A model generated the notes under the pieces. The model did not search any database. It saw nothing but the letters and a program-made list of their open reading frames with translations, and had not been told where the DNA came from. A stretch of DNA of 40,622 bases from Clostridia bacterium (GTDB taxonomy: Bacteria; Bacillota; Clostridia; Christensenellales; Aristaeellaceae), in contig JAFRBK010000006.1 of NCBI GenBank assembly GCA_017404985.1, forward strand, positions 1 through 40,622. The letters run 5' to 3'. This document shows, piece by piece, positions 2,965 to 6,632 of this stretch (the first letter of the stretch is position 1; every line of letters begins with the position of its first letter). The position numbers and the translations under genes were made by a program.

Positions 2965-4053
2965 ATGGAAGTCACACGTGATCAGCTGATAAAACTTGCG
3001 GAGGAAGCCTGCCAGACCCTGATGAAGAAGTTTGAGCCGGAACATCTGCCGCCGGAACACCATTTTCATTATCACCAGGGCGTTTTTCTTTCCGGTGTGC
3101 ATCATACCTGGAAGCTGAACGGAGACCCGTCCTATCTGGATTACATCCGGCGGTGGGTGGACAGCTGCATAGAAGAGGACGGGAATATTTTCGGCTTCAA
3201 TCCGGGGAATCTGGATGACCTGCAGCCGGGGATCCTGCTTTTCCCGCTGTATGATCAGACGGGAGAGGAAAAATATAAGCTGGCCATGGATACGATCGCC
3301 TGGTATTATGCCCATACCCCGACGAATCCGGAAGGCGGATTCTGGCATGGGTGTACCAGGCGGAATCAGATGTGGCTGGACGGGCTTTACATGGCCGGCC
3401 CGTTTATGACGGAGTACGGCGTGCGGTATGGCAGGCAGGATTTGGTCGACCAGGTGGTTTTTCAGGCGTCCCTGATGCGGGAAAAGACGCAGGACCGGGA
3501 AACGGGGCTCTGGCGTCATGCCTGGGACTGGGAGCGCAGGGAACCCTGGGCAGATCCCGTCACGGGGAAGTCGCCGGAATTCTGGGGCCGGTCGATGGGC
3601 TGGGTTCCGGTGGCGCTTCTGCAGGATGCGGAGCTCCTGCCGGAGGGAAGTCCGGAGAGGGAGAAGCTTACGGATATAGCCTGCGGGCTGCTGAAGGCGC
3701 TGCTGCCCTGGCAGGATGCGTCGTCCGGCCTCTGGTATCAGGTGACGGATAAAGGCGGCAGGCCGGATAACTGGCCGGAATCCTCCTGTACCTGCCTCTA
3801 TGCGGCAGCGCTGTCCATGGCGATCCGGCTGGGGCTGATTGATGCCGGGCTGAAAGAGGTCGTCCAAAAGGCGATTCAGGGTGTGATGCGTTATGTGGAC
3901 AGGGATGAGAAAGGCCTTCTGATCGGCAATATCTGTATCGGAACCGGCGTCGGCGATTATCCCTTCTACTGTGCGCGGCCGACCAGCGTGAATGATCTGC
4001 ACGGGGTCGGGGCCTTCCTGCTGATGTGTACGGAAGCCGCCGCGATTTTCTGA
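2965..4053 (+). CDS. GH105 unsaturated rhamnogalacturonyl/glucuronyl hydrolase (YteR/YesR-like)
   Basis: The 362-residue protein matches the length and features of GH105 enzymes, which remove the 4,5-unsaturated uronic acid from oligosaccharides left by pectate or rhamnogalacturonan lyases. The motif WLDGLYMAGPF places the catalytic aspartate at residue 139, close to Asp143 of Bacillus YteR, and the GLWRHAWDW motif supplies His185. WGRSMGWV follows at about 207-213. There is no signal peptide, so it acts in the cytoplasm on imported oligosaccharides. A GGGGG ribosome binding site precedes ATG 2965 at a rather long distance. It stands alone with its own promoter and no transporter next to it. 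Family assignment is strong; the exact substrate is not settled. Confidence 0.88.
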   Translation: MEVTRDQLIKLAEEACQTLMKKFEPEHLPPEHHFHYHQGVFLSGVHHTWKLNGDPSYLDYIRRWVDSCIEEDGNIFGFNPGNLDDLQPGILLFPLYDQTGEEKYKLAMDTIAWYYAHTPTNPEGGFWHGCTRRNQMWLDGLYMAGPFMTEYGVRYGRQDLVDQVVFQASLMREKTQDRETGLWRHAWDWERREPWADPVTGKSPEFWGRSMGWVPVALLQDAELLPEGSPEREKLTDIACGLLKALLPWQDASSGLWYQVTDKGGRPDNWPESSCTCLYAAALSMAIRLGLIDAGLKEVVQKAIQGVMRYVDRDEKGLLIGNICIGTGVGDYPFYCARPTSVNDLHGVGAFLLMCTEAAAIF

Positions 4054-4181
4054 GACCCCTTGGCCTTTCTCCGGTCCCGGGATTTTCCTGCTCCCCGGTT
4101 TCGCTGCAACCCAAATTGATACACAAAAAAACTGATGCACAAACCCAGTCTCGAGACACAAAAAATTCGAGTCACAAGCCG

Positions 4182-4209
4182 AAGGAACCATTGGGGATGG
4201 TTCCTTTTG
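4182..4209 (+). terminator. Likely terminator downstream of GH105, inside the repeat region
   Basis: A perfect 9-bp stem AAGGAACCA (4182-4190) / TGGTTCCTT (4198-4206) encloses a 7-nt loop and is followed by a short T-run. It lies about 130 nt after the GH105 stop codon and between doublets D2 and D3. Confidence 0.6.
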
Positions 4210-4262
4210 GTTTCCTCCGTTCCCGTTTTAGTAACACTGATTTTTAGTATCACCTGCAACCC

Positions 4263-4441
4263 GCACCGTCGCCGGGCGTTTTGAGTTTCACTTTTTTTGA
4301 GTTTCATCGATAACCCGCACCGTCGCTGGGCAGTTTGAGTTTCACTTTTTTTGAGTTTCATCGACCTCCTGCACCGTTGCCGGGCAGTTTGAGTTTCATT
4401 TTTTTTGAGTTTCATCGACCGCCGTCGCCGGGCGTCCGTTT
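4263..4441. repeat. 54-bp tandem repeat, three full copies plus a partial
   Basis: Units start at 4263, 4317 and 4371, each 54 nt, beginning GCACCGT(C/T)GC(C/T)GGGC and containing one TTTGAGTTTCA doublet. A fourth degenerate unit starts near 4421. Copies differ by point changes only. The minus strand is open across several units and would encode a repeated MKLKKSETQ-like peptide, but I regard that as a by-product of the repeat. Confidence 0.88.
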
Positions 4442-4524
4442 CAATTTTAGTAACACTTTTCTTTAGTATCACCGGCGAAAAAAGTATGCAACGCATGTTT
4501 CTGAGTTAGCCGGCACTAATCCTT

Positions 4525-4775
4525 TTCGCCAATTCGCCAACCCCCGGCGAATAGACTTTCCTTATTTTTCAAGGCCTGGAGGTCCCAATTCGCCAATTCG
4601 CCATTTCGCCGATGAATCGCGTGACCGTTTCACCGCCATGAACCCTATTCGCCGCCTATTCGCCTATTCGCCAATTCGCCAAAAATCGGCGAATAGACTT
4701 TCCTTATTTTTCAAGGCCTGGAGGCCTCTATTCGCCTATTCGCCAATTCGCCGACGTTACACACCCCCCGGCGAA
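4525..4775. repeat. 8-nt TTCGCC iteron clusters with a duplicated 38-nt block
   Basis: The hexamer TTCGCC occurs 12 times in the plus orientation: 4525, 4533, 4589, 4597, 4605, 4648, 4659, 4667, 4675, 4731, 4739, 4747. It is mostly in runs of two or three at an 8-nt period (AATTCGCC or TATTCGCC). It occurs inverted as GGCGAA at 4546, 4688 and 4770 (and 4474). A 38-nt block starting CGGCGAATAGACTTTCC is identical at 4545-4582 and 4687-4724, 142 nt apart. CTATTCGCC at 4657/4665 can pair with GGCGAATAG at 4688-4696. The array ends about 140 nt before the parA -35 box. No known repeat family is recognised. Confidence 0.88.
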
Positions 4776-4911
4776 ACGGCAAAACGGCCCGCTTTCATAC
4801 CCACCATTCTCCTCTCCAATGCTGAACACATCCCCTCCGCAGAGCGGTCCTTTTCCCAAAGGGTTTGTCCCCGTGACGGATAACCGTGGCAGACGAGCCC
4901 GGCGGACGACC
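4776..4911. other. Non-coding spacer between the repeat arrays and the parA promoter
   Basis: After the last inverted GGCGAA there is about 135 nt with no convincing gene and no repeat of the two families to the left. I saw no canonical parS palindrome in it. Confidence 0.5.
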
Positions 4912-4940
4912 TTTACAAGCTGAAGGGAAACCCGTATAAT
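4912..4940 (+). promoter_or_regulatory. Strong sigma-A promoter for the parAB operon
   Basis: TTTACA at 4912-4917 and a perfect TATAAT at 4935-4940 are separated by 17 bp. Transcription would start near 4947. The short leader contains a small stem TGCCC/GGGCA (4956-4970) just before the AAGGAG ribosome binding site at 4978-4983. Confidence 0.8.
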
Positions 4941-4988
4941 ATATAAGTATTTTTATGCCCGTTCGGGGCAGAGGACCAAGGAGCAAGC

Positions 4989-5756
4989 ATGGCAAAGATC
5001 ATTGCAATCGCGAACCAGAAGGGCGGCGTCGGGAAGACGACGACCGCCGTGAACCTTGCAGCCGCAATGGCGGAAAACGGGAAAAAAGTGCTGATGGTGG
5101 ATCTGGATCCGCAGGGGAACTCCACCAGCGGCCTGGGCTGTTCCGTGAATGAGCGGAATTCCATTTATGACGTGCTGATGGCCCGGGCGAAGCTGGAGGA
5201 CTGCATCCAGAAAACTGATACGAAAAAACTGAGGCTGATCGGTTCCGACATCCGGCTCGCCGGCGCGGAAGTGGAGCTGGTGAGCGTGGATGAACGGGAG
5301 TTTTATCTGAAAAAGGTGCTGGGGCCGATCCGGGACGAGTATGAATATATTTTCATTGACTGCCCGCCGAGCCTGAGCCTCTTGACGCTGAACGCGATGG
5401 CGGCGGCGGATTCCGTCCTGATTCCGATCCAGTGCGAGTACTACGCGCTGGAAGGTGTCACGAGCCTGATGAATACCATCAGCCGGGTGAAGAAGACGAT
5501 CAATCCGCAGCTGGAAATCGAGGGAATCCTGCTGACGATGCTGGACGGCCGGACCAATCTGGGCCTCCAGGTCGTGGACCAGGTGAAGAAGCATTTCAAA
5601 AAGATGGTGTTTTCCACGGTCATTCCCCGGAATGTGCGCTTGGGCGAAGCCCCCAGCCACGGGAAGCCCATCACCCGGTATGATCCGAAGAGCTCCGGGT
5701 CCCTGGCGTACCAGGCCCTGGCCAAAGAAGTGGCGTCCCGGAACAAAAAGAAGTAA
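4989..5756 (+). CDS. parA: ParA/Soj chromosome-partitioning ATPase
   Basis: The 255-residue protein is a full-length ParA-family ATPase that works with ParB to segregate the replication origin and, in Bacillus, to control DnaA. The deviant Walker A box KGGVGKTT sits at residues 11-18, the DLDPQGN switch region at 38-44 and the Walker B/IDCPPS motif at 123-128. There is no extra N-terminal DNA-binding domain, so it is of the chromosomal (type Ib-like) size. AAGGAG lies 5 nt before ATG 4989. It is the first gene of a long run, 21 nt before parB, and follows a repeat-rich non-coding region that could be its control or partition site (inference). Confidence 0.96.
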
Positions 5757-5777: not shown

Positions 5778-6632
5778 ATGGCGACAAAATCACACGGACT
5801 GGGCCGGGGGCTGGATTCCCTGTTCCAGATGGCGGAAGACGACAGTACGACGATTCGGGAAATTGACCTGGGGGAACTGGACCCCAATCCGGACCAGCCC
5901 CGGAAGAGCTTTGATGAGGAAAGCATCACCCAGCTTGCGGACAGCATCCGTGAACAGGGCGTGCTGCAGCCGCTGCTGGTGGTGGCTTCCGGAAGCGGCA
6001 GGTACCGGATCGTGGCGGGGGAGCGCAGGTTCCGTGCCTCCCGCGCGGCAGGGCTGAAGACGGTTCCCTGCATTATCAAGGATCTGGACGTGATCCATGA
6101 AATGGAAATTGCCCTGATTGAAAACCTCCAGCGGGAGGACCTGAACCCGATGGATGCAGCCAAAGGCATCAGGGCATTGATGAACCAGTGCGGATATACC
6201 CAGGAGAAGGTCGGGCTCCGGCTGGGAAAGAGCCGGGTGGCGGTGACGAACCTTCTGCGCCTCCTGTCCCTTCCGGACGAGGTGACGGAGATGGTCCGGG
6301 ACGGTCGCCTCAGCGCGGGCCACGCCCGGGCGCTGGCCGGAATCAAAGCGCCGGAGGAGCAGATTCGGCTGGCCCATAAGGCGGTGGACGAGGGGCTGAG
6401 CGTGCGCCAGCTGGAGCAGCTGGCGGCGCGGGCCAGGACGGCCCCGGCGAAACCGAGGACGCCCGCCGCGAGGCCCGCGGAAATGGAGGAGCTGCAGGAA
6501 AAAATCCTTCGGAAGACGGGGCTGAAGAGCAGCCTGACCGGAAACATCTCCCGGGGGAAGATCGTGCTGCAGTATTCGAGCAGGGAGGAACTGGAACACT
6601 TTAACACGCTGCTGGACAGCCTGCAGGAATGA
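5778..6632 (+). CDS. parB: ParB/Spo0J partition protein
   Basis: The 284-residue protein is the DNA-binding CTPase partner of ParA. It loads at parS sites and spreads as a sliding clamp. The ParB/Srx-type domain spans about 27-120 with the GERRFR box at 81-86 and ENLQRE at 115-120. A helix-turn-helix follows at about 141-163 (TQEKVGLRLGKS), then the LSAGHARAL motif at about 178-186 and a C-terminal dimerisation region. The opening KSHGLGRGLDSLF is the typical ParA-contacting N-terminus. A GACAGGAGA ribosome binding site precedes ATG 5778. No canonical parS palindrome was seen in this window. Confidence 0.96.
   Translation: MATKSHGLGRGLDSLFQMAEDDSTTIREIDLGELDPNPDQPRKSFDEESITQLADSIREQGVLQPLLVVASGSGRYRIVAGERRFRASRAAGLKTVPCIIKDLDVIHEMEIALIENLQREDLNPMDAAKGIRALMNQCGYTQEKVGLRLGKSRVAVTNLLRLLSLPDEVTEMVRDGRLSAGHARALAGIKAPEEQIRLAHKAVDEGLSVRQLEQLAARARTAPAKPRTPAARPAEMEELQEKILRKTGLKSSLTGNISRGKIVLQYSSREELEHFNTLLDSLQE

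Follow-up and report, generated by a model that had tools for sequence, protein, structure and literature searches.

Paired words at a 16-nt step in a Clostridia genome: candidate tandem sites for a transposase-related protein encoded beside phage packaging genes

The window analyzed here is a stretch of 40,622 nucleotides from a Clostridia bacterium of the family Aristaeellaceae (contig JAFRBK010000006.1, positions 1 to 40,622, assembly GCA_017404985.1). It contains an intergenic repeat array between two ordinary neighbours, a GH88/GH105-type hydrolase gene on the left (2965..4053, plus strand; PF07470) and a ParA-type gene on the right (4989..5756, plus strand), the latter followed by a ParB-type gene (5778-6632). 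The array, at positions 4117-4472, consists of seven word pairs, hereinafter doublets, in which the two words are placed at a 16-nt step and share 9 to 12 of 12 letters. The leftmost doublet belongs to type C (4117..4143; TTTGTGCATCAGTTTTTTTGTGTATCA on the T-rich strand) and has no known partner protein of the kind described below; it is followed by a type D doublet (4152..4178; CTTGTGACTCGAATTTTTTGTGTCTCG on the minus strand), a type B doublet (4226..4253), three type A doublets (4278..4307, 4333..4361 and 4387..4416) and a second type B doublet (4446..4472). Based on the sense of the conserved core of the words, all of these doublets read on the minus strand, the sense of type C being an uncertain guess from its likeness to type D only. 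The three type A doublets, each together with a spacer, form three 54-bp tandem units (4257..4419). A perfect 10-bp inverted repeat followed by TTTT (4182..4206, plus strand) is likely the terminator of the upstream hydrolase gene, and companion arrays with an 8-nt step, built of the words TATTCGCC/CAATTCGCC, occupy positions 4521..4752.

All seven doublets that the earlier note had listed, with their exact 16-nt step, are present. Within positions 4100-4500, seven pairs were detected at lag 16 and, among the other lags from 8 to 40, only lags 35 (one pair) and 38 (two pairs) were represented; 1,000 dinucleotide shuffles of the same segment gave a mean of 0.05 lag-16 pairs and never more than two. 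When the window was combined with 20 other array loci, 69 exact runs of at least 9 nt were found at lag 16, and no other lag between 9 and 60 yielded more than nine. We agree with the note that the array is neither a CRISPR, given that neither the direct-repeat families nor the sequence has the layout of constant repeats with unique spacers, nor a simple tandem repeat. Three of the doublets (4279-4417) also form the 54-bp tandem repeat. An Rfam search of window positions 3500-5500 produced nothing above the threshold and one sub-threshold lncRNA match outside the array. Among eight pieces subjected to RNA folding, the z-scores ranged from -4.1 to +0.6, and only two A-C pieces fell below -3 (-3.1 and -4.1); because only these two fold well, an RNA hairpin role for the doublets was dropped.

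The source genome, a draft assembly of 52 contigs and 85% completeness, gave 54 matches in a BLAST search seeded with the window array. A scan of 633,457 bases of this genome listed 96 doublets of several word types at 23 places, a count that we give as about 95 because the doublet at C2:2920 overlaps another one and looks spurious. The main types are represented by the words TTTGAGTTTCA (A), TTTTAGTAACA (B), TTTGTGTATCA (C), TTTGTGACTCG (D) and TTTGAGTGTAC (E), and the rarer ones include variants of D along with types F, G and H. Eight of the 23 places are within about 1 kb of contig ends, so the arrays probably break the assembly. No lag-16 excess was found in 400 kb of control stretches picked from the same genome away from the known arrays. 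The neighbours of the arrays that could be matched to protein families are ordinary genes, for example those for triosephosphate isomerase, PfkB, HAD, GH43 and ParA, and occur in both orientations. Two proteins encoded between arrays on contig C42 were considered as transposases, a candidate assignment that was dropped when they turned out to be Big_2 and RadC proteins. Elsewhere, the ends of two array loci (contig C1, at the end of L017, and contig C23, at the end of L019) carry one and the same insertion-sequence-like end, presumably IS3-like, by which a type B doublet is interrupted and next to which a type A doublet directly lies; the two contigs may represent the flanks of a single insertion. 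At another pair of loci, two unrelated genes, one coding for an AAA_25 protein (L191:4434-5429) and the other for an S24 peptidase (L196:2130-2540), are 75% identical over their last 56 residues and are followed there by an array, as if the array and the gene tail had moved together.

Companion arrays of the kind seen in the window accompany most of the larger doublet arrays and contain hairpin-forming spacers. The respective pattern, TTCGCC at an 8-nt step, produced 66 matches in this genome, most of them at doublet places, and none in 44 congeners. Two single matches were obtained in 390 other genomes of the class, and the notion of a wide family of TTCGCC arrays was accordingly dropped. An 8-nt-step form, consisting of GCACTCGA repeats, also adjoins the gene of the protein Y described below at one locus (L264), so the companion arrays are possibly a related kind of site.

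The arrays are paralogous mosaics with local tandem copies of 53-63 nt, and their longer matches extend over about 150-310 bases at 75-92% identity; the copying process that the earlier note had offered as one explanation of the doublets is borne out by these features. In a comparison of 15 arrays, the shared part was found to start at most 17 nt from the outer doublet in 11 of the 15; the arrays on C12, C2 and C1 have an extra 50 nt in common, and the shared part of the C7a array starts later. The right ends of the shared part vary among the 15 arrays, and a single mobile unit with fixed ends was therefore dropped as an explanation. The homologous loci on contigs C3, C45 and C44 contain four type A, four type A and two type B doublets, respectively, at the same site and with related spacers. 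The further claim that the two words of a doublet change together applies between types, with a mean identity of 10.1 of 11 positions within a doublet versus 7.2 of 11 between types, but mostly not within a type: the 88 doublets of types A to E show 46 one-sided and 12 two-sided deviations. Ten of the 12 two-sided deviations are to the same base, all ten in type D, and type B displays a mostly constant difference between its two words. Coordinated change is thus visible between types and in type D and is not general at present. The predominance of one-sided deviations suggests that a doublet is passed on whole, with its two words then decaying mostly one at a time.

Three of the type A and B doublet loci adjoin a gene for a protein of about 200 amino acids, denoted Y here, which is present in six copies in this genome. 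All five copies with readable flanks have doublets, namely type A on contigs C45 and C3, type B on C44, type E on C40 and type D on C12; the Y gene on C12 is truncated and the sixth copy (C6) is located at a contig edge. Types A, B, D and E are thus each matched by a resident Y copy, whereas no Y is known for type C and types F, G and H have none of their own. The other 18 of the 23 places, including that in the window, are devoid of Y, and such Y-less arrays were seen only in this species among those sampled. At the C40 locus (L185:2287-2960), the type E doublet, whose start falls within the T tract of a terminator-like hairpin, extends to within a few bases of a Y stop codon. Y was found in 14 of the 200 genomes searched, the source genome included, all of one genus and with at most 15 matches each, some of which are fragments. 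A profile of the Y copies from this genome failed to match the genome and viral collections; a wider Y profile retrieved nine viral contigs, two of them identical near Y, and a search of 50,697 deposited phage records with one Y query found nothing. Comparison of Y with Pfam, NCBIfam and PHROGs gave no convincing match (the best Pfam hit, PF08789, has an E-value of 5.7e-4 and occurs in 2 of 18 members), the PDB sequences yielded one chance match only, and none of the 18 members has a Pfam DDE match.

To describe the association between doublets and Y, we compiled 30 Y loci, of which 5 come from this genome, 17 from 10 related species and 8 from viral contigs. Under the looser rule, a lag-16 doublet with lineage-dependent words lies within 170 nt of Y in 26 of the 30; the four loci without a doublet are G012_C32 (with a TerL gene beside Y), G011_C18, G060_C18 and v263. 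The loci left outside the table are L205 (contig edge), L259 (a copy of L258) and a group of weak, partial or contig-edge cases (L220, L221, L222, L228 and L231-L235); among the left-out loci, TTTTAGTG repeats are present in L228, L232 and L233, and a weak doublet in L234. A strict rule that requires a T tract detected a lag-16 doublet within 200 nt at 18 of 32 Y loci, with 30 matches in 11,979 flanking bases that represent 26 distinct sites because four were counted on both strands, and of which 12 come from this genome. The same rule gave no matches at lags 12-15 and 17-20 in these flanks and two lag-16 matches in 1,540,563 bases of 80 other stretches, 20 of which are stretches of the source genome picked away from the arrays. 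In the reverse test, one doublet pattern run over the viral contigs matched four of them and all four encode Y, two of them being identical near Y; the locus set is likewise not fully independent because the Y proteins of G012_C21 and v262 differ by 1%. Tandem words at a 10-nt step were also observed near several Y genes (L258:4895, CCTGACAACC; L208:541, AATGAGCCGA; L227:883, AATGGGGCGA).

The conservation of the pair and of its 16-nt spacing across related species and viral contigs, with the word changing in both members, argues for the suggestion that the pairing itself is selected. It also weighs against the view that the arrays are neutral intergenic mosaic repeats of the BOX/NIME kind that took up phage-derived pieces by chance, the pairing having no present function. 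This view accounts for the paralogy of the arrays, with their diverged longer matches and short tandem copies, and for the mostly one-sided changes within types, and it may be valid for the Y-less arrays, but it leaves unexplained why pairs of different words with the same 16-nt pitch turn up next to Y in other species and viral contigs; as an account of the doublets in general, we consider it unlikely.

When oriented along Y, the 26 words, which were copied by hand and aligned on their core with one row one letter off, have the consensus GTTnCnCTCAA, in which the core C and the core T are each present in 25 of 26. This is the conserved part of the words; the terminal CAC or CACA that had been described as constant is found only in some of them. 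With the core taken as sense, types A, B, E, F, G and H read on the A-rich strand and type D on the T-rich strand, so that A, B, D and E have the same direction; an assignment based on the T-rich strand, in which C and D were opposite to A, B and E, was replaced accordingly. The direction of the doublet is that of Y in all 26 loci, the doublet being located 5' of Y in 17 and 3' in nine, and a pair of doublets flanking Y on both sides was not seen among the Y loci. The constant orientation, at distances of up to 170 nt, would be compatible with autoregulation, whereby the doublet is an operator or an mRNA site through which Y controls its own operon and the arrays are titrating or regulatory copies. 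However, a site that lies 3' of the gene in nine of the 26 loci, the lack of a general RNA folding signal in the eight pieces and the occurrence of array neighbours in both orientations all speak against such a role, which appears improbable.

The window array itself was not matched in any of 24 congeners or in another 16 genomes of the order, and a sister array with more types was likewise unmatched in 44 congeners. The exact type A words were not found in the genome and viral collections, nor the exact types B, C, D and E in the viral contigs, all in scans from which the window's own genome may be missing, and an array vocabulary common to congeners, the genome and viral collections, phages or plasmids was looked for and not found. 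The earlier note held that absence of the array from close relatives would indicate neutral repeat decay; the array is indeed missing from the searched congeners, but the doublet itself is present in 10 of them, mostly with other words, beside Y. The link to parA that the note had implied was dropped: no lag-16 pair is present at the 24 parA loci covered in 23 congeners, and the neighbours inspected at other places are unrelated genes. About 200 kb from each of two congeners with several Y matches (G011 and G004) showed no lag-16 excess. Two other congeners, G022 (L092-L096) and G041 (L098-L106), contain intergenic arrays with a 7-nt step (AATTCATAATTCAC..., GAGTGAA, CTACTTC), several of which form inverted pairs whose members are about 120-390 bp from each other. 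The counts for lags 7 and 14 are 28 and 22 in G022 and 27 and 28 in G041, compared to at most five for other lags not divisible by 3. In the open-access literature searched, no account of the 16-nt doublet element was found.

The distance between words tracks the distance between Y proteins (Mantel r 0.47, reached in 0 of 5,000 permutations; 25 loci), and the correlation is equal for the N-terminal (0.453) and C-terminal (0.446) parts of Y; it could also result from plain co-inheritance. The Y protein of C44, which adjoins word B, differs from that of C45, which adjoins word A, at 13 of 55 positions in the N-terminal part versus 8 of 144 in the rest (p = 5e-4). The two Y copies with word A show no such N-terminal excess (4 of 55 versus 10 of 144, p = 0.57), and neither does the distant pair C45 and C40 (p = 0.17). 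Because the doublets are directly 5' of Y, a single recombination tract could have exchanged the word together with the Y N-terminus in C44.

The N-terminal part also provides the link of Y to transposases. A 579-aa protein from a Butyrivibrio plasmid, annotated as a transposase, aligns at its start with residues 1-70 of Y (43.7% identity, E 6e-9); two other Y queries match this protein as well (E 2e-7 and 2e-3), and it carries a DDE_Tnp_1 domain (E 7.9e-12). About 160 nt 5' of the start of this transposase, TTCCGACTAAAA and TTCCGCCTCAAA are located 16 nt apart, with 10 of 12 letters identical; a further copy of the word directly precedes the gene, and one inverted copy, a single word, forms the downstream end. 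Over the 8.2-kb Butyrivibrio locus, lag 16 is not enriched (3, compared to 35 at lag 12 and 11 at lag 24), so that the weight of the transposase link rests on the fit of the word to the consensus, and this transposase with a similar 16-nt pair is a single example. Separately, the C-terminal half in two Y queries matched a hypothetical protein encoded on a Methylobacterium plasmid (NZ_CP015370.1:545-781; E 2e-3 and 3e-5), and the two halves of Y may therefore have separate relatives.

The scanned neighbours of Y are packaging genes of tailed phages. The portal protein encoded beside Y was identified by PF06381 (E 3e-107), with a match to phrog_146 as well, and the TerL neighbours by phrog_38 (E 5e-60 to 2e-68) in modules G004, G055 and G012, of which the G012 copy is without a doublet; the TerL neighbours had no Pfam match over the cut-off. 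A small protein encoded directly before a doublet and Y, denoted X, was in one case recognized as TerS by phrog_10899 (E 1.8e-5), and three other X copies are without a Pfam match. Terminase genes are next to the doublet in the scanned modules G004, G055, L261 and L286, a part of the 26 loci; at L261 the doublet abuts the TerL frame, and at L286 tail and lysis genes are found further up from Y.

This genomic context raises the possibility that the doublets are packaging-initiation sites resembling pac or cosB that are read by TerS, with Y a mere neighbour and the arrays clusters of pseudo-packaging sites. The proximity of doublets to terminase genes, their direction in all 26 loci, the TerS-like gene X that flanks the doublet at several loci and the abutting TerL frame at L261 are all consistent with such a function. 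For one gut Christensenellales bacterium, packaging that may run from the vicinity of a terminase gene into the chromosome has been reported (PMC12946183), a case that lends interest to the packaging idea but is no evidence for the doublet site itself. On the other side, the arrangement of genes near the doublet differs among loci, with Y never more than 170 nt away, a weak argument, and it is Y rather than TerS that has a domain in common with a transposase bearing a similar pair. Moreover, one site per phage would not alone yield 18 Y-less places. We regard the TerS reading as possible, albeit rather unlikely.

A quite different origin, from the tips of a tyrosine-recombinase element, was suggested by the congener G017, in which an element with several Phage_integrase genes (L147:8300-11905) has TTCGGGATAA pairs at a 17-nt step on both tips, this pair being present at five places in that genome. 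The tips look alike in that they combine a T tract with a word, but the step is 17 and the word is another one. Moreover, none of the five integrase-family genes found in the genome analyzed here is in an array locus, the nearest being about 17 kb from a doublet, so that the origin of the arrays from a trio of recombinases was dropped and tips of this kind are a very improbable explanation of the doublets.

Collectively, these observations lead us to favour, with moderate confidence, the interpretation that the doublets are tandem binding sites for Y-type, transposase-derived proteins and were dispersed in this species in a manner resembling the REP/RAYT systems. Under this scenario, the two 11-12 nt words of the form GTTnCnCTCAA, set at a 16-nt pitch over an A/T tract, would constitute a tandem recognition site to which Y binds via its transposase-derived N-terminal part. 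Two Y protomers would occupy the two words, and the variable half of the word would determine specificity. The 18 Y-less places, that in the window included, would be dispersed sites of several Y lineages that spread and multiplied locally by duplication and recombination, as REPs do around RAYT genes. Given the position of the doublet, its likeliest role in the phage would be the start of packaging or the control thereof; the chromosomal doublets, in turn, might be passive copies, a sink for Y or packaging starts. A far-reaching version of this scenario, which we put forward as a speculation with a low chance of being correct, holds that the host chromosome carries, at 18 places with at least two word types each, packaging-type doublets that match several resident Y/terminase modules. 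Capsids made by these modules would then load chosen regions of the chromosome, and the arrays would either mark intrinsic hot spots of transduction or serve as decoys that lure terminases off phage DNA. In this version, Y would represent a novel class of proteins for packaging or site recognition that derives from a transposase end-binding domain, with specificity and site changing together.

With the interpretation of the doublets as sites of Y, an odd repeat becomes a testable protein-DNA pairing, and the natural set of 26 Y-word pairs, not all of them distinct, opens the change of specificity to direct study. The doublet and Y are also a conserved part of the phage packaging neighbourhood for which no description was found in the literature searched. 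If the chromosomal arrays are packaging starts or sinks, they would be relevant to the ways in which bacteria of the gut and rumen transfer their own DNA.

Among known systems, the closest likeness is to REP/RAYT (TnpA-REP), in which palindromic REPs are read by a HuH tyrosine transposase (PMC8266576). In both cases, a transposase-related gene is accompanied by its own short sites, the letters vary with the protein lineage and copies are dispersed between genes; sites beside the protein gene together with many dispersed copies are found in the genome analyzed here, and dispersal was not seen in the sampled parts of G011 and G004. The site described here, however, is a direct 16-nt pair rather than a palindrome, and the scanned neighbours of Y are phage packaging genes. 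Y also lacks a convincing match to a HuH tyrosine transposase (Y1, IS200/IS605-like), its N-terminal part being related to a DDE_Tnp_1 transposase instead, and without a HuH protein and a palindrome, Y and its doublets are not a REP/RAYT system. Nor does Y show the arrangement of DDE transposons of the IS4 superfamily, a catalytic gene between inverted ends; the Butyrivibrio relative does have the DDE domain. The ends of IS21-type elements contain two direct repeats 23 bp apart, to which a transposase with tandem HTH domains binds (PMC10122671). This arrangement of two tandem words at each end resembles the doublet, but the spacing is 23 bp rather than 16 nt, and the relative found in this analysis is a DDE_Tnp_1 protein. 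The possibility of an IS21 element at the arrays was dropped, the IstB profile having given four partial matches in this genome, two over the cut-off and none at an array place.

Phage pac and cos sites are short and located next to terminase genes, and pseudo-pac copies in the host chromosome can start the packaging of host DNA. The doublets differ in that several word types are clustered per array, and their packaging role is predicted from position. The TAACTGA repeats of Beggiatoaceae are 7-nt tandem copies of one word for which S1, Csp and Csr have been named as candidate binders (PMC4679880). Like the doublets, they are short intergenic direct repeats with a patchy distribution between species, but these candidate binders are unlike Y. 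Short intergenic direct repeats that are patchy between species are also known as the STRRs of cyanobacteria, and pneumococcal BOX and neisserial NIME elements are modular intergenic repeat arrays, as the doublet arrays are; to our knowledge, BOX and NIME have neither a 16-nt doublet nor a Y-like partner. The system described here appears to consist of a putative transposase-derived DNA-binding protein with its own scattered sites, in this case beside phage packaging genes.
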